Shown: in pieces, positions 38,444-47,592 of the stretch
Position numbering within the stretch: the first letter of the stretch is position 1
How the letters are laid out: each line of letters begins with the position of its first letter
Assembly (NCBI GenBank): GCA_017475265.1
Contig: JAFVFY010000001.1
Location: forward strand, 1 to 64,000
Origin: Prevotella sp.
GTDB taxonomy: Bacteria > Bacteroidota > Bacteroidia > Bacteroidales > Bacteroidaceae
Direction: 5' to 3'
Length of the DNA: 64,000 nucleotides
The notes under the pieces: generated by a model
What the model saw: only the letters and a program-made list of their open reading frames with translations
What the model was told of the DNA's origin: nothing
Database searches by the model: none
Position numbers and translations under genes: made by a program

Positions 38444-40981
38444 TTATCGGGATATAAGCTCGTAAGTATAGCCTGCCCTTGTCTGTATGTTATAAAGATA
38501 TGTATGGTTAAAGTTAGATTCCTTCTCAGCTTTAAGGCCCTTACCCTTCAAAGGTGTGGCGGTGCGAATACGACAGGGGCCTCCTATCTCAGAGCGTACA
38601 ACGGCACGAGTGAGACGTCCGTCCTTCCAGTACATGTCGACCTCAAAGCCACCACGGGCCCTCAGGCCTCGCACTGAGCCGTCCTTCCATGCTAAGGGCA
38701 GGGCGGGAAGGAGGTAAATGAAACCGTCGTGGCTCTGGAGCAGCATCTCGGCAATGCCAGCGGTGCAACCGAAGTTTCCATCAATCTGGAATGGCGGGTG
38801 AGCATCGAACATGTTGGGATAGGTGCCACCGCGCTGCTTCTGCGTGCCGAAGATGAGGAAAGTGTCGGCGGTGAGCGTCAGCTGGTCCTGAATGAGCTTG
38901 TAGGCATGTTCACCATCAAGCAGACGTGCCCAGCAGCAGACCTTCCAACCCATCGACCAACCAGTGCTGACATCACCTCGGGCTTCGAGCGAGGTGCGGG
39001 CGGCACGCCACAACTCCGGCGTGCGGAAGGGTGAGATTTGGTTGGAGGGGAAGAGACCATAGAGGTGGGAAAAGTGGCGGTGGTCATCCTTCGGATCATC
39101 GAGGTCATCGAGCCATTCCTGCAACTGTCCCCAACGGCCTATCTGCATCGGGGGCAAACGGGTGAGCTGGGTTTTGATTATTTCTATAGTCTCTATAGTG
39201 GCTATAGTATCTATAGCCTTTCTTGCCTCCAGTACATTGTGGAACAGCTCGGCGACGAGCTGATTGTCCATGGTCACTCCAGCATCAAGTGGAGAGGGGC
39301 GTCCCTTGCCACCATGCTCTGGAGACTCACCAGGACAGACGACAAGATAGGGCTTGCCTGTTGTGGGCAAGCAGTGCTTGGGGTCTTCTACCAGAATCTG
39401 CGAATAGAAACGAGCGGCATCGAGCATGATGGGGTAATACTGTCGCAGGAAGTCACGATTGCCAGTATAGAGCCAGTGCTCCCACAGGTGGCGGCAGAGC
39501 CAGGCAGCGCCCATAGGCCAGAGACCAGTAGCAGCACGGTCGATGGGACCAGTAACGCGCCACTGATCGGTGTTGTGGTGCAACACCCAACCGTCGGCAC
39601 CATACATGTCACGGGCGGTCTGACGACCTGTCTCACTCACCTCACGGATGAGGCGGAAGAGCGGGCCGTTCATCTCCGTAAGATTGCAGACCTCAGAAGG
39701 CCAGTAGTTCATCTCGAGGTTGATGTTGGTGGTGTACTTGGAGTCCCACGAAGGCAACATTTTCTCGTTCCAGATGCCCTGCAGGTTAGCAGGGTTGATG
39801 TTATCAGGCTGGGAAGAGCAGATGAGCAGGTAGCGGCCAAACTGGAAGTAGGTCTCCACGAGGTGGTTGTCAGTAGTAGGCAACGCTTCCGAGCGTTGCA
39901 TCTCCGTTCTTGCAAACTGAGCAATACGCTGACTGGTTGGCACACGGGGATAGAGGTCGGAGCCGAGGTCGAGCTTCACGCGGTCGTAAAGCTGATGATA
40001 GAACTGCTCGTGTCGCACCTTCAGACGTTCGTATCCCAGCGTCATGGCCTCCTGAAGTCGCTGCATGGCTTGTGCCTTCTCATCGCCAGTAATGTCCTTG
40101 TAGTTCACCACGTTGGTACCCACGGTGACATAGACGGTGGCCTCGTCGGCCCCAATGACCGACAGCTGGCCGTCGGCAGTACTGATATAATGGGCAACGT
40201 TTCCAAGCGTTGCGGCAGCCTCGGCATCGGCACGCTGGGAAGCGTGCCCTACTACGGCCTGCACCGCCATCAGTCCCATGAAACGTACCTTGCCCTTTAG
40301 GTTCTCGTGTTTCCCCGACACGCCATGTAGATAGGCGTAGCCACTTCCCACCCCTGTAGGGGAGGGGTTGGGGGTGGGGTCACTGCCAGTCAGCACGTCG
40401 CTATGAGGCGAGGTGAACGAAGCCGTGAACGAAATGCGTCCTGGCTCCGAAGCGGTGAGGTGTATGGCGACCACCTTGCTGCCCAGCGGGGCAATGGTCT
40501 CACGCTCATACTTTACTCCGTCCACTTCATAGCGAACGATGCTTAGGGCGTTGTCAATATCAAGCAACCGCTCATAGTTGCTATAGTCTGCATGGCCGGG
40601 CATGGCGATATACAAGTCGCCAAAAGGCTGGTAAGGCATTCCCATGTTCTGCCCCGCTCCAAAGGGCATCACCTTCTCGTTGGCCAACTGTTCCGCCTCC
40701 TTATAGCGACCCTCGAAGATGAGCTGACGCACCTTTGGCAGGTACTCCTTCGCTTCGGGATTCATCACCTGATTAGGTTGACCGGCCCAGATGGTCTCTT
40801 CGTTCAGCTGTATGCGCTCCACGGCAGGCGTACCATACACCATACCACCCATCGTACCATTACCGATGGGCAGAGCCTGTGTCCATGTCTGCGCTGGACG
40901 GTCGTACCATAGACGGTGTTCCTGCGCCATCGCAACGACACAAAGATTAATCAAAAGGCTTAGTATGATTAATTTCTTCAT
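38444..40981 (-). CDS. GH95 alpha-L-fucosidase/galactosidase
   Basis: 845 residues, signal peptide [21 protein letters not shown]95 enzymes release terminal alpha-1,2-L-fucose (or L-galactose) from xyloglucan, pectin or glycans. Family landmarks: [65 protein letters not shown] and [18 protein letters not shown]. Three translated insertions: a REP/BIME-like element at 40192-40254 (residues about 243-264, VVGHASQR...TLGNVAHY), a half-element at 39873-39900 in another frame ([10 protein letters not shown]), and CTATAGT words at 39174-39222; a C-rich palindrome lies at 40341-40380. Starts 3 bp after the esterase stop. Confidence 0.9.
39873..39900. repeat. Half REP-like element in GH95
   Basis: GTAGTAGG followed by CAACGCTTCCGAGCGTTG. 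It equals one arm of the paired elements at 40192, 46450 and 46945 but is read in a different frame ([10 protein letters not shown]). Confidence 0.75.
40192..40254. repeat. REP/BIME-like paired palindrome, copy A (in GH95)
   Basis: Two hairpins, GCAACGTTTCCAAGCGTTGC and GCACGCTGGGAAGCGTGC, separated by 14 nt and ending CCCTACTAC. Read in frame on the minus strand as VVGHASQR...TLGNVAHY. Confidence 0.85.
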
Positions 40982-40984
40982 CGC

Positions 40985-42313
40985 CTATGGTTTAGCAATT
41001 TTAGTCTGCATAGTCTCAGGGCTTTCTATTGTGACCTTCGACTCGTCAATCATCTCACGGTCTAGGCCGAAGACATCAGCAAAGAACTCGTAGACGGCCT
41101 GGCGCTTGTTAGGGCCGAAGTCGTGACGCTCATCGGGAAGATGGACGTTGCGGACGTTTGCTTTGGCATCGTAGAAGCCGAAGATTCGCTGAATGAAAGG
41201 GTACTCCAGCTCAGGGTTGGTGTGCGTCCAGTCGCCGCCGTCGCTGACAAGAAGGAGAGGCTTGGGGGCGATGATGGCAGCCAGTTCGGCTTCGCAGGTA
41301 CCACCACCAGCAAGTTGCACAGGCATACCACTCTCGCAAGGACAGCCACCATCGAAGTGACTAGCAACATGGACTACAGGAGCAGAGGCGGTGATGCGAT
41401 TATCAAGCAGGGCGAGGAGCACGGTATGAGTGCCGCCTCCACTGCCACCATTGGCGGCAACCCGGGTAGTATCGATGTCTGTTCTGTTCTTCAACATCCA
41501 GTCGAGGAGCTTCAGCCCACAGGCGGCCTGAAAGATATGGGCGCGGGCGGTATGGTGGTCGCCCACCTCGGCAGCCGACTGGCTGTAGCCGTAGAGGTCG
41601 AAGTCTACGCAGATGGCACCCATGCGGGCCAGGGTAGCGAGGCGCTGCTGCTCGTCATCGCGGTAACGGGAAGGCCAATGGCCATCGGGGCAGATGATTA
41701 AAGGTTTGAGATTTGAGGTTTGAGATTTGAGGTTTGATTTATTTCGGGAAGGGGAATAGATGGTGCCGAAGACATGCTGGCCGGGCGTCAGCTCCAAGCA
41801 GATGTTCTGGGTGGTGTAGCCATCGTGCTTCCTTATCTTGGAAAGGATGGCAGGTTTATCCTTTACACAGGAATCAAGGAAAGCATCAATCTGCAGACGT
41901 TCGCGTACCTCTTTTATTAATATAGCACGGCGCTGCTCCCACTCATCCTTGTTGCTGTACTTCGAGGAGAGCCAGTCGAGCATCTGCCGGCCTTCATCAT
42001 CGTGACGACGGGGGTATTCGTAGAGCTTAATCTTGTAAGTATTTTCGTTCTGCTTCCACCAGTTCCAGTCGTAGTATTTGCAGATGTTGTCGAGCGTCTG
42101 TTCCAAGGAATAGGGGCGAACACGGAAATCGGCGTAGGGCAGCATCACGCCGACAGTATCTACATTGCTGTCGAACTTCAGCTTCACGCCAAAGCGCTTA
42201 CTGACATCCAGCATGATGTCGTGCACAGGACGGGCATAGCGGGTCTCGAAGGACTGCGATTTTGCGCTTACGCAAAATAATAATGAATAAAGTATAAAGG
42301 CAATTTCTCTCAT
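40985..42313 (-). CDS. Exported alpha/beta-hydrolase (acetyl xylan esterase-like) with STN-like N-terminus
   Basis: 442 residues with signal peptide. The first 90 residues after it (RPVHDIMLDVSKRFGVKLKFD...LEQTLDNICKYYDWNWW) look like an STN domain, common at the N-terminus of TonB receptors and secretins, unusual on an esterase. Then an alpha/beta-hydrolase: GQHVFGTIYSP, LIICPDGHWPSRY, nucleophile Ser in GGSGGGTHT, Asp in LLVSDGGDWTH and His in LPDERHDFG. Likely removes acetyl or similar esters from plant polysaccharide. TTTGAGA word repeats at 41702-41738 are translated (NKSNLKSQTSNLKP). Confidence 0.78.
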   Translation of the reverse strand: MREIAFILYSLLFCVSAKSQSFETRYARPVHDIMLDVSKRFGVKLKFDSNVDTVGVMLPYADFRVRPYSLEQTLDNICKYYDWNWWKQNENTYKIKLYEYPRRHDDEGRQMLDWLSSKYSNKDEWEQRRAILIKEVRERLQIDAFLDSCVKDKPAILSKIRKHDGYTTQNICLELTPGQHVFGTIYSPSRNKSNLKSQTSNLKPLIICPDGHWPSRYRDDEQQRLATLARMGAICVDFDLYGYSQSAAEVGDHHTARAHIFQAACGLKLLDWMLKNRTDIDTTRVAANGGSGGGTHTVLLALLDNRITASAPVVHVASHFDGGCPCESGMPVQLAGGGTCEAELAAIIAPKPLLLVSDGGDWTHTNPELEYPFIQRIFGFYDAKANVRNVHLPDERHDFGPNKRQAVYEFFADVFGLDREMIDESKVTIESPETMQTKIAKP

Positions 42314-42400
42314 CGTTGTTATTTCGTTATCTCGTTATTTCGTTATAACGTTATTTCGTTATTACGCCATTTCGCCATTTCGTCATTTCATCATAGCTCT
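42314..42400. repeat. CGTTATTT tandem words
   Basis: Ten or so degenerate copies of CGTTATTT, CGCCATTT and TCGTCATT fill the gap between the four-helix protein gene and the esterase gene. Confidence 0.85.
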
Positions 42401-42409
42401 CTGCATTCC

Positions 42410-43150
42410 CTAAATAATATTTCTCACTCCATTGCATTGCGGATAGGCGGAGCAGCTCCAGAATTCCTTGCCGGCATTCACTCTTTTCTTAGCCACCCGC
42501 TTAATCATAGGCTTACCGCATAAGGGGCAGACAGGAGCATCATTTTGCTTGCTCACCTCTGTACGGTGGGCAAGACGCTCCGCTGTAAGTGCCTCAGTGA
42601 ATCCACCCTCCTCACGAAATATTGATAACTGGCTCTCAATCTGTTTGCCCAGCATCAGGATGAGGCGGTTGCAAAGCACCAACATACAGTTGGCCGCCAT
42701 CATCGAATCGTCTGAAAGCAGCCAAACATCAAAAAGATGCTTCTGTCTCAGAATGTGTATGCTGCTTTGGTGAAGCACATCGTCTTGATAGTTAGGTTTC
42801 TCAAACCGCATATTGGCTACCTGCGCGTATTCTGCTGAGTGTATAGACCAAGGAATCTGTTCGTGTCGAAGCAGCCAGTTCGTGTAGTCATTGGCAAGTT
42901 CGGCCAGGGTGGCGCGGGCTACGTCGGTAAGTCTCATCTCTGTTTCCTTCGAGGTGGAGTGACGGGAGTTGCCCTCGGCGATATTGGCAGGAGCAGCCCG
43001 GGCGGCTATTGTCATCTGGTCAAACTGGCGTCCATAGGGGTCGTTGGTGCGGTTGAGGAACCGACCGCAGAAATCTTGCGTCGCCAATTGTATCACGTTG
43101 GCCATCACCCAGGTGTCAAGCCAGAAATATCCGAAATGTGAGATTTGCAT
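42410..43150 (-). CDS. Four-helix-bundle protein with topoisomerase-type zinc ribbon
   Basis: 246 residues, no signal peptide. The N-terminal 180 residues match the four-helix-bundle (23S rRNA intervening-sequence protein-like) suffix family: RTNDPYGRQFDQMTIAARAAPANIAEGNSR, then helical repeats. The C-terminus is a CPLCGKPMIKR...FWSCSAYPQCNG ribbon like those ending topoisomerase I. The family's role is unknown; such proteins are thought to bind nucleic acid or partners. It lies inside a CAZyme run between repeat spacers, with no clear link to its neighbours. Confidence 0.85.
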   Translation of the reverse strand: MQISHFGYFWLDTWVMANVIQLATQDFCGRFLNRTNDPYGRQFDQMTIAARAAPANIAEGNSRHSTSKETEMRLTDVARATLAELANDYTNWLLRHEQIPWSIHSAEYAQVANMRFEKPNYQDDVLHQSSIHILRQKHLFDVWLLSDDSMMAANCMLVLCNRLILMLGKQIESQLSIFREEGGFTEALTAERLAHRTEVSKQNDAPVCPLCGKPMIKRVAKKRVNAGKEFWSCSAYPQCNGVRNII

Positions 43151-43163
43151 GTTTTTCTTTTTA

Positions 43164-43274
43164 TTGTCGTTATTTCGTTATTACGTTTTTTCGTCATCTC
43201 GTTGTTACGTTAATACGTTATAACGCTGTCACGGGATTTCGTTATAACGTTATCACGGGTTAACGTTATAACGC
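43164..43274. repeat. CGTTATAACG word array forming a gene's 3' end
   Basis: Degenerate CGTTATTTCG/CGTTATAACG words run from the spacer into the end of the large GH43-like gene and encode its C-terminal residues (VITLTRDNVITKSRDSVITY). Confidence 0.85.
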
Positions 43275-46200
43275 CTAAACCCTTTCTGTTCGCCACAGGG
43301 CGGCCATCAACCATGAGGGTGAGGCCTACGCCCTGATGGTAGTGCTGGCCATCCTCGTCCCAAATGATAGTGATGATGTGACCGCGATAGCTGATGCCGT
43401 CGAGGCAGAAATAAGGCCAAGTATCCTTTGGCATGAGCGGGTTAATGACGATGCTGCCGTCAATCTGGGGACGGAGGCCGCAGATGCCGGTAATGATGAG
43501 GTCGTTGTAAGTGGAGTGGTTGTAGTAGCGGCTGCGCTCTCGGTCACCCATAAGCCAGGCGCCGGTCTTCTCGTCTAGGTATTCGCCGATGTAGGGGCGG
43601 CCACGATGGTGCTGACTCTCGGTGTAGAGCTGCATCTGGCGGAAGAACACGGAGTCGCGAATAATAGGATACGGATAGTTGTTCATATAGTTAGCCAGCG
43701 CCGTCAGCGTCTGACTTGTAGCGAAGGGCCAGATGGCTCCGTCCCATTCACACTTACCCACGCCGTGGGAACGGAACTCCGGGTGACGGCGCTCAGCTGT
43801 GGTGAGGCCGTAAGGGGCAGAAAAGCCTTGTTCGTCTTTTATTTGAAGCCATGCTTCATCATGAATGATGTCTTGGCGGTAAGAAACCATATATAATAAA
43901 GAATCATTTGCCGGCAGGTTAAAGTACCATGGAATAAAGCCGATGGCCTCGCGTACCTGTGCCAAAGTATCGCCACGCAGGGTCTCGTAGAACTGGTGCT
44001 TCTTGTTCCATAGTTTGGTCTCGATGAGGTTGCGCAACGTGTCAGCCTTTTGCTCATAGAGGCGGGCCTTATCAGTCTCTCCAGTCAAAGTGTTGATAAA
44101 GGCGAGTGCCTCGGCGTTGCCATACATATAGCTGTTGATGGTGGGACGGGCGTATTGTTTCTTTCGACCGCCGCTGATGCTCTCCTCCATGCCGTCCTGC
44201 ACGTCACCCTGCCAGTAGAGACCCGAGGGCAGACGGTTGGTGCGCTCCCAGCGTTCGTACTCCTCTTCGAGACGGGGTTTTAAGGAGAGAAGGAAAGCGG
44301 TATCGCCCTCCACCTTGAAGAGTTCCTGCACGGCATAGGGGTTCCAAGAGGAGAACTTGTTCATCTTCGTCATGGGCTGGCCGTCGTTGCCGAAGTACCA
44401 GGTGCGGAGAATCTGGTGGAGGTAGGTGGTGTCGCGCAGCCAACGGCTCTCCATGATGTGGTGACCGATGGCACAGGCGATAAGGTTGTACTTGTCCGCG
44501 TAGCTACGGTCGACAAGGAACTCGGTCATGCCATAGCCCACAGGCGTACGCTTGATGTGCTTGCGCAACGTCCACCAGCGGTAGTAGTACATCTCGCGCA
44601 TCTGCTCGTCGGGACAGTCGAAGAGGGGAATGTTCTCACGCATCCACTCAGCGGCCTGGGAGTTGGGGATGGTGGTGACGATGTTCTCGTCCTCCATGGA
44701 GTTGAAGCGGGAGACGTAGTGGGAAATGAGAACCTCACCCCCACCCCCTCTCCCAAGGAGAGGGGCGTAGTTACCTTTATCTCCGTCTTGGCTACAGACA
44801 TTGGCCAGAGAGAACCTGGCCAGGCGACCGATGGTGTCGGCAAGGGGCTGGTCGAAAAGCTGGTCGGCGGGGGTGTCGGTATTTGGTTCTTTAAAGAGCG
44901 GGCCAGTGCGGAAGACGAGGCGCGAGATGCTCTCCACAGGGGTGTCAAACTGGCGGGTGCATTTCCCGGCGTCAGAACCGCCGGGCACAGTAACAATATA
45001 GACGGCGCGGTGCAGCTCGCAGGAGAGCTTTGCGGTGATGTGATAGGTCACGCCCGGCTCGTACTTCTTGAGCAGAGTGCCGTAGCGGGCACCGCCTTTT
45101 ACGCGGATGGCTCCCGTGCTATCGGCAACGATACGTGAACAGACGGTGCCGACATCATCGACGAACTCGATGTCAAGCTCACCATGGTCAGCTTGGTCAA
45201 AACGGAGGTCAAACTCTACCTGCAGCTCCTTCGTGTTGGGGATAATGCGCTCGACCTTAGCATAATCATAAGGGTCGCTGTCGCTGAGGGTAAGCCATTG
45301 TCCGTCGAGGGCGACGGGAGCGAGGAGGGGTGAATAGATGTTCCAGTCGGTCATGTCGGCGAGCTTCGCGTATTGCGTGAACGAGCCGCTGGCATGAGTA
45401 GTGGCATCGAGACGCACGGGCACGGGAATGAGGGAGACCCAGATATCCTCCTTGTTGTTGCTGTAGGTGACCCAGAAAGGAGCCCCCCCTTCGGCCCCCG
45501 AGGGGGCTTCAATTCCTCGCACATACTGCGGGCCGTAACTCTTGTACTGGCCTCCATGGCGTAGGGGTGTCACCTCACCGTTGATAAGCGAGAGGGTGGT
45601 ATAGTCGAGACCGTCGGCAGAGAGGCTGATGGCCAAGGGCCAGCGGTACTCCGAGGGATTATAGACAGTGGCGTATGTGCCGTCGCTTAGGCGCTGCCCC
45701 CAGATCTTTGCATTGCTGTTGACGAAGCCGGGAGCACGGTCGCAGCCCAGTTTGCCGTCAACATTGGTCAGTCGCCAGGTGTTGCCACCGTCTGTGGAAA
45801 GACTCGTTACAGCGTGCTTCCACAGCGCCACCTTTCGCCCATCGGACAGGGTGTAGCCGCAGAAGGCTTTGTAGGGCTTGTCGAGGGGGATGAGCGGGTC
45901 GTTACGGTCGGCCTCCTCCACCCATTGCATGCGCTGCATGGGGTCGGCGAGCATCTGTTCGACAGCCTTCACCAAGGCTTTGTCCTTGCTTTTCTTATAG
46001 TAGGGGTAGATGGTATTCTTCTCGGAGAAACCGTGGTTGTAGTAAATAAAGTAAATAGGGCCAAGGGTACCGTCCTCGAAGACACGACGCACCACGCGGC
46101 CGATACCGTTACCGTCGTTGGGATCATCCTTCATGGTAAGACAGATGCCGTAGTTGCCAGTAGCGAGAAGGATGCCAGAATCTCTAGAAGAGACATACCA

Positions 46201-47592
46201 GCCGACGCGCTGATGCATGACAGCCTTGAGATTATGGGCAGGGGGGAAGTCCTTGCCCTCCTTCGTCCAGCCTTCAGGGACGGGATATTCGGGGAATAGT
46301 TCGGTGGGGGAAGACCAGGTGTAGCCGTCAGTCGATATCTGGAACATGGTCTTGCCGGGAGCTTCATGTTCATGACGTGGGTCGGTGAGATAGTGCAGCC
46401 AGAAACGGCCCTGCCAGTAGGCAAGCATGGGCTGGTGGTTATAGGTCCAGTAGTTGGCAACGCCTCCGAGCGTTGCATCCTCGGAGCTGGCACGCTGGGA
46501 AGCGTGCCCTACTACGGTGCCGCCGCGCATGGTCTGGATGGTATGCACACCGACCACAGGCTTCAAACCTCCATCGTGACGCTCGGAGCGGGCAATGGTC
46601 TTGCCGCTGTAGTGAACGACATCGCGGTTATATTTGATAAGACCCCCCACTAGTTCTTCAGGAGCCATGAATACCGTACCGTGCTTATGACCCACGGGAA
46701 AGGATACGGCCCCAGTCTGGTCCTGGAAGGTTTTGAAATCCTTGGTGCGATGGGCACCATAGATTTTATGCTGATAGGAATCGTAATAGATATACCACCA
46801 CTCCCCTACCCTAGCCGTCGATGGACCCTCAGTGAAGTTCTCCGTAAACGGTTCGGAGGCTTCGCTCCACGGACCGTAGGGCGACGAGGCGAAAGCCACC
46901 TTGATGTTGCGCATAGGGCGGGTGTTATCCTTAAGCACCATGACGTAATAGGCCACGCTTCCCAGCGTGGCAACTTTGGTATCGACACGCTGGGAAGCGT
47001 GCCCTACTACTTTCACCAGGGTGGCGTCGATGACCGAGAATCCTGGATTATAGAAGAGCTGCGCCTTCGAGAACTTCTGGAAGTCCTTCGTCGTCATGTA
47101 ATAGAGGCGGTGATTGTTCTTATGGTCTTCCTGTCCGTCGGGAAAACGACCAGGGATGCAGGAGGCCCAAATGATGAGGAACTGCCGCTTCACATCGTCG
47201 TAGAACAGTTCCGGCGCCCAAGTGTTCACCGTCGTGGTGTCCATACCCGTAGGTATAAACCGCTGTTTACTCCAATGAATGAGATCTTTCGATGACGAGT
47301 AGCCGACCCCCCGGTCGCCCCTCCACGATGAAGTCCACACAAGATGGAACGTGCCGTCGGGGCCGCGCACAATGGACGGGTCGCGCATCACCTTCTGCTG
47401 CCCCACTTCCGGACGGAGGAAAACGCCCGTGATGCTGTCCCACCGAAGCCCGTCATGGCTGTAGATGAACCGCAGTCCCTCAGTAGCCGGCTCGTGGAAG
47501 GACGTGGAGACATAAATGTCTTTCGCCTCCATGGAAAGGCAGCTCCACGCAAGCAGCAGGAGCAGGAGGCAGCATTTCAGGTAGTAGTTCAT
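43210..47592 (-). CDS. Three-module GH43-like / sialidase-like / six-hairpin glycosidase
   Basis: 1460 residues, signal peptide. Module 1 (about 25-470) is GH43-like: DPSIVRGPDGTFHLVWTSSW, NTWAPELFYDD, DPRHEHEAPG. Module 2 (about 560-760) resembles a sialidase-type propeller (SLSTDGGNTWRL, ATVYNPSEYRWPLAISLS) and is followed by a beta-sandwich. Module 3 (about 960-1400) is an (alpha/alpha)6 MGH1/GH63-like barrel (YYRWWTLRKHIKRTPVGYGMTEFLV, LPSGLYWQGDVQDGM, ECEWDGAIWPFATSQ-like). The layout suggests an arabinosidase or multi-linkage pectin enzyme; a GH142-type assignment is a guess. Two REP-like elements are translated, replacing loops in module 1; C-rich palindromes at 44733 and 45481 and a repeat-coded C-terminus add to it. 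Confidence 0.78.
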   Translation of the reverse strand: MNYYLKCCLLLLLLAWSCLSMEAKDIYVSTSFHEPATEGLRFIYSHDGLRWDSITGVFLRPEVGQQKVMRDPSIVRGPDGTFHLVWTSSWRGDRGVGYSSSKDLIHWSKQRFIPTGMDTTTVNTWAPELFYDDVKRQFLIIWASCIPGRFPDGQEDHKNNHRLYYMTTKDFQKFSKAQLFYNPGFSVIDATLVKVVGHASQRVDTKVATLGSVAYYVMVLKDNTRPMRNIKVAFASSPYGPWSEASEPFTENFTEGPSTARVGEWWYIYYDSYQHKIYGAHRTKDFKTFQDQTGAVSFPVGHKHGTVFMAPEELVGGLIKYNRDVVHYSGKTIARSERHDGGLKPVVGVHTIQTMRGGTVVGHASQRASSEDATLGGVANYWTYNHQPMLAYWQGRFWLHYLTDPRHEHEAPGKTMFQISTDGYTWSSPTELFPEYPVPEGWTKEGKDFPPAHNLKAVMHQRVGWYVSSRDSGILLATGNYGICLTMKDDPNDGNGIGRVVRRVFEDGTLGPIYFIYYNHGFSEKNTIYPYYKKSKDKALVKAVEQMLADPMQRMQWVEEADRNDPLIPLDKPYKAFCGYTLSDGRKVALWKHAVTSLSTDGGNTWRLTNVDGKLGCDRAPGFVNSNAKIWGQRLSDGTYATVYNPSEYRWPLAISLSADGLDYTTLSLINGEVTPLRHGGQYKSYGPQYVRGIEAPSGAEGGAPFWVTYSNNKEDIWVSLIPVPVRLDATTHASGSFTQYAKLADMTDWNIYSPLLAPVALDGQWLTLSDSDPYDYAKVERIIPNTKELQVEFDLRFDQADHGELDIEFVDDVGTVCSRIVADSTGAIRVKGGARYGTLLKKYEPGVTYHITAKLSCELHRAVYIVTVPGGSDAGKCTRQFDTPVESISRLVFRTGPLFKEPNTDTPADQLFDQPLADTIGRLARFSLANVCSQDGDKGNYAPLLGRGGGGEVLISHYVSRFNSMEDENIVTTIPNSQAAEWMRENIPLFDCPDEQMREMYYYRWWTLRKHIKRTPVGYGMTEFLVDRSYADKYNLIACAIGHHIMESRWLRDTTYLHQILRTWYFGNDGQPMTKMNKFSSWNPYAVQELFKVEGDTAFLLSLKPRLEEEYERWERTNRLPSGLYWQGDVQDGMEESISGGRKKQYARPTINSYMYGNAEALAFINTLTGETDKARLYEQKADTLRNLIETKLWNKKHQFYETLRGDTLAQVREAIGFIPWYFNLPANDSLLYMVSYRQDIIHDEAWLQIKDEQGFSAPYGLTTAERRHPEFRSHGVGKCEWDGAIWPFATSQTLTALANYMNNYPYPIIRDSVFFRQMQLYTESQHHRGRPYIGEYLDEKTGAWLMGDRERSRYYNHSTYNDLIITGICGLRPQIDGSIVINPLMPKDTWPYFCLDGISYRGHIITIIWDEDGQHYHQGVGLTLMVDGRPVANRKGLGVITLTRDNVITKSRDSVITY
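46450..46515. repeat. REP/BIME-like paired palindrome, copy B
   Basis: Starts GTAGTTGG, arm GCAACGCCTCCGAGCGTTGC, then a 14 nt linker, arm GCACGCTGGGAAGCGTGC and end CCTACTAC. Translated in frame at about residues 360-380 of the large enzyme. Confidence 0.85.
46945..47010. repeat. REP/BIME-like paired palindrome, copy C
   Basis: Starts GTAATAGG, arm CCACGCTTCCCAGCGTGG, a linker, arm CACGCTGGGAAGCGTG and end CCCTACTAC. Translated at about residues 195-214 within a GH43-like loop (VVGHASQR...TLGSVAYY). Confidence 0.85.

Follow-up and report, generated by a model that had tools for sequence, protein, structure and literature searches.

The Rickettsia palindromic elements (RPE) raised the question of how a palindrome can enter a gene and leave it working, but did so in organisms that are hard to handle. 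The same question is posed by the window analysed here, a 64,000-nt stretch at the start of contig JAFVFY010000001.1 of a Prevotella sp. genome (GCA_017475265.1, here G000; 4.75 Mb in 135 contigs, 99.1% complete), in which hairpins of one design occur at four sites, as three pairs and one single unit, all of them inside two genes encoded on the minus strand. An earlier note, made from the sequence of the window, had described them as REP/BIME-like palindromes read in frame within two carbohydrate-active enzyme genes. The bulk of the evidence presented below comes from this one draft genome.

The palindromes of the window and their host genes

Hairpins were recovered at all four places and coordinates given by the earlier note: two arm patterns each match the window four times, compared with no match in 100 dinucleotide-preserving shuffles. 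The host genes and repeat units are:

38444..40981, minus strand: host gene 1, GH95-type, 845 aa (ORF and Pfam match)
39873..39901, plus strand: single REP unit (the half element) in the GH95 gene; its minus-strand reading is 10 residues
40187..40215, plus strand: degenerate REP unit ATAATGGGCAACGTTTCCAAGCGTTGC with 3 mismatches, distal half of the first pair
40227..40255, minus strand: consensus REP unit in the GH95 gene, in-frame VVGHASQR
40351..40379, minus strand: copy of the C-rich repeat of the ACCCACCCCCAACCCCTCCC family in the same GH95 gene, in-frame DPTPNPSPT
43210..47592, minus strand: host gene 2, BT_3657-like and BT_1020-like fusion, 1460 aa (ORF and Pfam match)
46450..46478, plus strand: distal unit of the second REP pair, its tag altered to GTAGTTGG
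46486..46515, minus strand: consensus REP unit, VVGHASQR frame
46945..46973, plus strand: distal unit of the third REP pair, its tag altered to GTAATAGG
46982..47010, minus strand: consensus REP unit, VVGHASQR frame

The element boundaries proposed earlier hold overall, except that the first element is better delimited as 40187-40255. Outer GTAG-type tags had been ascribed to both ends of each pair; the full tag GTAGTAGG is present in one unit per pair, not in both, and the tag of the partner is altered to ATAATGGG at 40187, GTAGTTGG at 46450 and GTAATAGG at 46945. The half element is translated in a different frame, as the note had read it.

The assignment of the first host to GH95 was right. 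Its pair at 40187-40255 amounts to a net gain of 19 aa, and this insert, the residues of the half element and the C-rich copy at 40351..40379 are each missing from 13 of 13 GH95 orthologues in the alignment. At the half element, the loop is shorter by 10 aa in 11 of these orthologues and by 6 aa in two (L036 and L039).

The second host, described as a GH43 propeller gene, is instead a 1460-aa fusion of BT_3657-like and BT_1020-like parts, whose nearest solved chain is 5mqr, named beta-L-arabinobiosidase. The pair at 46450-46515 makes the BT_1020-like propeller about 21 aa longer. The pair at 46945-47010 lies within the BT_3657-like N-terminal part, beyond the end of the Pfam match, and adds 16 aa, replacing the codons of an RGKGD-type loop. 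Sixteen orthologue loci were tried and the longest forward-strand ORF was taken from each, which left four readable at the first insert and eight at the second; the first is absent from all four and the second from all eight, as well as from 5mqr. In some relatives the BT_3657-like and BT_1020-like parts are separate ORFs, and others have one stop codon within the homologous stretch.

In the window, arrays of degenerate 8-base TTTCGTTA-type repeats (42296-42411 and 43155-43290) also stand on both sides of a 246-aa ORF with sub-threshold matches to the family of 23S rRNA intervening-sequence proteins and to zinc ribbons.

A REP family inside the genes of one genome

A search with the hairpin arms, as the note had advised, revealed a genome-wide family: the core ACGCTTCCNAGCGT has 118 exact copies in G000, and its reversed control has none. 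The unit is about 29-30 nt long and consists of (G)TAGTRGG, a hairpin and a few bases, the general design being TAGTRGG followed by the hairpin CACGCTTCCNAGCGTG. TAGTAG or TAGTGG stands in register at 100 of the 115 exact cores in the DNA fetched, where no tag was demanded; the leading base of the tag is G in 57% and A in 29% of 116 units. Three flanking stem pairs covary, being Watson-Crick in 111, 109 and 102 of 115 copies, each with at least two pair types. Because the tag is in register, the stem variation is compensatory and the copies are many, the palindromes of the window belong to one REP family of the GTAG superfamily.

The likening to REP sequences thus stands, and the pairs of this genome do not look like BIMEs. 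The pairs were said to share a linker of about 14 nt; the 22 inverted-pair spacers in the DNA fetched from G000 range from 6 to 33 nt, reach a best pairwise similarity of 0.34, and have no common length or sequence. Pairs in this genome therefore lack the conserved spacer of a BIME or REPIN that moves as a unit.

Clusters of units were counted in 52 stretches around core or arm matches and one around the Y1 transposase gene L033; the regions, chosen around matches, contain 115 of the 118 exact cores, and ORFs were called by rule rather than by a gene finder. Counting only tagged units, an open ORF encloses 65 of 72 clusters with a margin of at least 30 nt; under a looser unit rule, 70 of 78 lie in ORFs. 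REPs are defined as mainly extragenic, and the population of G000 is not. Under neutrality, an in-gene share of 0.86 is expected if every placement preserves frame by its length, which the observed 0.90 does not exceed (p 0.17); it does exceed the 0.67 expected if only one third do (p 3e-6).

The 65 in-ORF clusters are spread over 54 ORFs of 171-1924 aa (median 793). Pfam matches at E 1e-3 were obtained for 49 of the 50 host ORFs scanned, in addition to both hosts of the window, which covers 52 of the 54. Among the hosts are adenylosuccinate synthetase (PurA), phosphoglycerate mutase (iPGM), anaerobic ribonucleotide reductase (NrdD), electron transfer flavoprotein alpha (EtfA), glutamate synthase (GltB), carbamoyl-phosphate synthase (CarA), several glycosidases and kinases, and a mostly cobalamin gene run on contig C103. 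In that run (L128 and L129, G000:C103:73206-86866), six ORFs hold eight in-frame REP clusters in about 14 kb (nine under the looser rule), several per gene, a crowding that could reflect a relaxation of selection or a spread within the locus. Only two of the 65 clusters fall within 60 aa of the ORF start, so that over-long ORFs do not account for the in-gene location.

Orthologues were checked, as had also been suggested, and those of 12 further genes lack the inserts just as those of the two window hosts do. A joint search with 14 gene segments gave orthologues of these 12 (the DUF2520 and SNF2 segments were left out), and none of the 40 orthologue sequences has the residues that the repeat encodes. 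Relative to orthologues, the net gain in G000 is 9 residues in PurA, 7 in iPGM, 25 in NrdD, 16 in GltB, 11 to 13 in CCG, 8 to 11 in CarA, 19 to 27 in apgM, 20 in GH127, 15 to 25 in DPPIV, 24 in OEP and 11 in GT2, with insert edges fixed by the alignments to within a few codons. The EtfA gene gains one residue relative to four orthologues, and 0 and 16 relative to two others; its repeat replaces about nine codons of a host loop and is therefore not a plain insertion. Loop codons are replaced in iPGM and GltB as well. Transposition by exact insertion in every case was accordingly rejected, the net gains ranging from 0 to 27 residues with loop codons replaced. The earlier note had named two observations that would weigh against its reading, and neither was made: the inserted residues were not seen conserved without the repeat in distant relatives in the alignments made to orthologues and solved chains (those to the GltB chains end before or at the site), and the palindromes are not confined to the window.

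The reading frame is strongly biased. Among 106 units, the frame that yields VVGHASQR (f0) is used by 60, r0 by 21, r2 by 12, f1 by 8 and r1 by 5, and the frame containing the TAG stop by none, as expected. The chi-square test over units gives p 2e-16, a value that is overstated since units within a cluster are not independent; single-unit clusters use f0 in 23 of 35 cases (p 4e-8). The five non-TAG frames are open in 79-104 of the 106 units, r1 in 104. The sequence upstream of the units carries the three-base composition rhythm of the host gene in phase with f0. Of the head-to-tail spacings, 21 of 22 in G000 are divisible by three, versus 17 of 32 in sister metagenome-assembled genomes (MAGs) among the matches listed.

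A second, C-rich palindromic repeat, ACCCACCCCCAACCCCTCCC, is unrelated to the REP family and has 64 copies in G000 at up to two mismatches (control 0). It lies in ORFs at 19 of the 23 sites examined, a small sample, with readings such as PTPNPSPGEG or PLPSGGVGGG (loci L342-L371). At least two of the copies (L347 and L365) presumably precede the true start codon, judging by the N-termini, and three similar copies are in what we take to be the signal-peptide region of SusD-like lipoproteins. Among the matches listed, only two copies occur in 526 kb of sister loci, one of them in an ORF. Since this unrelated repeat is also found in ORFs, a RAYT acting on the REP family does not by itself explain the in-gene habit, and the habit of the C-rich repeat points to the host lineage as the source of the cause.

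Sister genomes, the transposase and the probable origin of the in-gene units

The core is held by eight of 120 genomes of the genus, G000 included; single untagged cores in three genomes (G009, G102 and G121) and two in a fourth (G096) look like chance. The TAGTAGG form occurs in five of 398 genomes, and the tagged unit in G000 alone among 149 genomes from across the order, a sample nearly without other members of the genus. Matches listed in named genomes (80 of 93 stretches) are all from Prevotella sp., apart from one Bacteroidaceae record, and mostly from ruminant gut.

The location of the family differs sharply in these relatives. In the MAGs CAMORS, JAGBLC and CAJONO, 80 of the 94 clusters among the matches listed lie outside ORFs of at least 100 aa, and 11 of the 14 in-ORF clusters among them are in ORFs of just 100-189 aa; the in-gene share of G000 differs from that of these listed sister clusters with a Fisher p of 6e-24. 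This count leaves out 14 clusters at locus edges and four genomes with one or two clusters each (JAFSKJ, JAFSYY, JAFSZU and CAJOEC; one intergenic and four in-ORF clusters), inclusion of the latter would slightly lower the contrast. In the named loci, 34 of 51 inverted-pair spacers among the matches listed are exactly 32 nt long. Other genomes are varied: four of five clusters are intergenic, with another tag, in G073; G034 has one intergenic pair and G140 a copy in an ORF; three of five sites are in ORFs in G240; of nine tagged clusters in G096, three are intergenic and six in ORFs, one ORF being only 102 aa; and no full unit was found in G201.

The RAYT (Y1) transposase that the earlier note proposed to look for exists in sister genomes, flanked by the same family, whereas the search of G000 found none of the kind. 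The gene in G109 encodes 214 aa with the motifs NHVH and YINQNP, stands between REP pairs and matches the NCBIfam model of REP-associated transposases below its cut-off. Relatives of this gene are present in seven of 299 genomes of the genus and, in five of these seven, have this hairpin or a close relative of it on either side. A RAYT of this type was found neither in G000 at E 1e-15 nor among the 131 genomes of the genus with a completeness of at least 90% and a contamination of at most 5%.

Three Y1_Tnp genes of G000 (L031, L032 and L033) were considered as movers and rejected, the loci fetched around them containing none of these REPs. The motif of L031 is like that of subclass 1.2, and this 151-aa transposase is bracketed by a different REP-like paired palindrome, of the GCCCCGAAGGGGC and GGGGGTGCAAGCCCCC types. 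L033 has a motif like that of subclass 2.6, and the palindromes beside it did not recur elsewhere in 417 kb of G000. L032 is a RAYT-like fragment at the edge of contig C29, followed by an inverted repeat with GTCGTGGGGACAGG, an arrangement that resembles the TIR-type transposase elements outlined in PMC3733652.

G000 and G096 have an in-gene array in common at which the two sequences, identical apart from this, differ by 42 nt, exactly 14 codons. A protein kinase gene present in both genomes (L103 and L326) combines identical with diverged stretches in a mosaic and has an in-frame tandem REP pair in common; an extra REP is present in the G096 gene only, where G000 has a CTTCAATCTTCAA simple repeat.

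Taken together, the family is probably RAYT-derived, with a population that now resides in coding sequence and is kept there by selection for frame-preserving copies. The flanking of the sister-genome gene suggests that a Y1 transposase of the RAYT type, similar to that one, dispersed the founder REP; at an ancestral stage it would have carried inverted pairs through the intergenic DNA of the species group. Later, in the line leading to G000, the family would have settled inside genes, as single or loosely grouped units of about 29-30 nt, the in-gene state being observed and the process reconstructed from it. Placement may have been by insertion, often costing the host between a few and about nine codons, at sites in variable loops and between domains; the encoded loops would be exposed. 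Selection would retain placements that hold the frame, preserve the fold and avoid the TAG frame, and would favour the VVGHASQR reading; the peptides are probably made, and tolerated rather than useful. The pairs of G000 may have arisen mainly by separate neighbouring placements, and the head-to-tail arrays by in-frame tandem duplication, as seen once. The cognate RAYT was apparently lost from G000 or left unassembled. Several points count against this reading: no RAYT of this type was found in G000, the C-rich repeat too is mostly inside ORFs at the sites examined, and the in-gene share does not exceed the neutral expectation for placements that all keep frame by length. REP singlets are usually considered immobile on their own in the REPIN literature, and replacement of the EtfA loop, which left the protein at most one residue longer than in five of six orthologues, does not fit simple transposition.

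An alternative is a spread without any dedicated transposase, as in RPE, in which recombination, template switching or repair would copy hairpins and overwrite codons, and the RAYT would serve the intergenic branch only. No such RAYT was found in G000, its pairs have no conserved spacer, loop codons were replaced in EtfA, iPGM and GltB, and an unrelated C-rich repeat has the same in-gene habit, all of which fit this alternative; it is nevertheless rather unlikely, given that the units keep a GTAG-type tag in register, a tag that is part of RAYT recognition in known systems, and that this or a related hairpin flanks the RAYT in five of the seven genomes that bear one. It is possible, though doubtful, that in this Prevotella-like lineage a general process tied to no one transposase writes palindromes of at least two unrelated families, the GTAG REP and the C-rich repeat, into or over loop codons of ordinary proteins, core enzymes among them. 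If so, mobile palindromes would live chiefly in protein-coding DNA, with protein loops continually giving rise to them and taking them up.

Survivorship is a less probable explanation, and an unlikely one. A family once present everywhere could have lost its intergenic copies by decay and deletion while purifying selection shielded those in genes, as might be supposed from the RAYT not found in G000 and from the mostly intergenic copies of the sister MAGs among the matches listed. However, the copies in genes hardly differ from one another even at synonymous positions (an argument that is partly circular for units chosen by tag and core, although the same is seen without the tag filter), the inserts are absent in species whose GH95 protein is 73-79% identical, and two species differ by the 42-nt array step within otherwise identical stretches. 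Near-identical copies, close species free of inserts and the array difference all make the in-gene population look young.

Recruitment of useful peptides, as spacers or as binding or oligomerisation loops, would turn the frame bias into a mark of positive selection. The strong preference for one reading and the presence of the window inserts in polysaccharide-degrading enzymes agree with such a role, but it is very improbable for hosts as unrelated as PurA and kinases, with five frames used to give unrelated peptides, and with orthologues that manage without the inserts. An artefact, with intergenic repeats falling in genes through ORFs called too long or through misassembly, might be feared from mechanically called ORFs, a 135-contig draft and the C-rich copies L347 and L365 that presumably precede start codons, but is largely refuted by elements that lie inside or between Pfam domains, align inside orthologues and seldom approach ORF starts.

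Comparison with known systems

A protein-coding REP family would be new in Bacteroidota, to which G. forsetii belongs: no report of one was found in the literature searched, in which few subscription journals were covered. PMC3733652, in the sections consulted, names no Bacteroidota among its GTAG families and mentions G. forsetii for CGTC repeats. Most described REPs are stated there to be intergenic (Di Nocera et al. 2013, PMC3733652), and intragenic GTAG-tagged REPs are reported from several species, in the highest number from O. terrae, in dimers or groups that code for 20 to 30 aa. Like the GTAG REPs of that account, the family of G000 has a GTAG-type tag on a short hairpin, occurs as single or head-head units and has copies within genes of many kinds; unlike REPs as mostly described, it has 65 of 72 clusters in genes, a comparison that does not extend to the in-gene fraction of O. 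terrae. Intragenic GTAG REPs are thus already known; a mostly intragenic population of them is new.

The likeness to RPE drawn by the earlier note is borne out, the palindromes of G000 lying in frame inside unrelated conserved genes, with several families per genome, as is described for RPE in the parts of PMC3767692 and PMC2229807 consulted. RPE-4 and RPE-6 correspond to intragenic CGTC-type repeats of R. conorii (PMC3733652, in the passage seen). By size the family is not one of RPE, which are given as about 100-150 bp (PMC3767692, same sections): going by these descriptions, it departs from RPE in its unit of about 29-30 nt, its GTAG-type tag and a sister branch flanked by a RAYT.

In their conserved-spacer pairs and, in some genomes, a RAYT between REPs, the sister MAGs are like the REPINs and RAYT/REPtrons presented in the excerpts of PMC2817692 and PMC3116915, whereas the units of G000 stand alone or in groups with no spacer in common, and no RAYT of the kind turned up there. 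TnpA-REP subclasses 2.4 and 2.6 occur in Bacteroidetes, with REP insertions inside tnpA-REP genes of subclass 2.4 (PMC6006769, as far as its available text goes). The NHVH and YINQNP of the sister RAYT are close to the motifs of these two subclasses, a likeness of motif only, and in-frame spread through unrelated genes, a feature of G000, is not described for them in the same text.

One genus thus presents two states, intergenic pairs in the sisters, some with a RAYT, versus in-gene units in G000, in which the RAYT was not found, so that the switch can be tested by comparison of genomes and by biochemistry. Dozens of natural insertions in well-known enzymes have a cost that is measurable. By anatomy a GTAG REP, by habit Rickettsia-like and no longer extragenic, the family offers a tractable case of mobile DNA becoming protein sequence.
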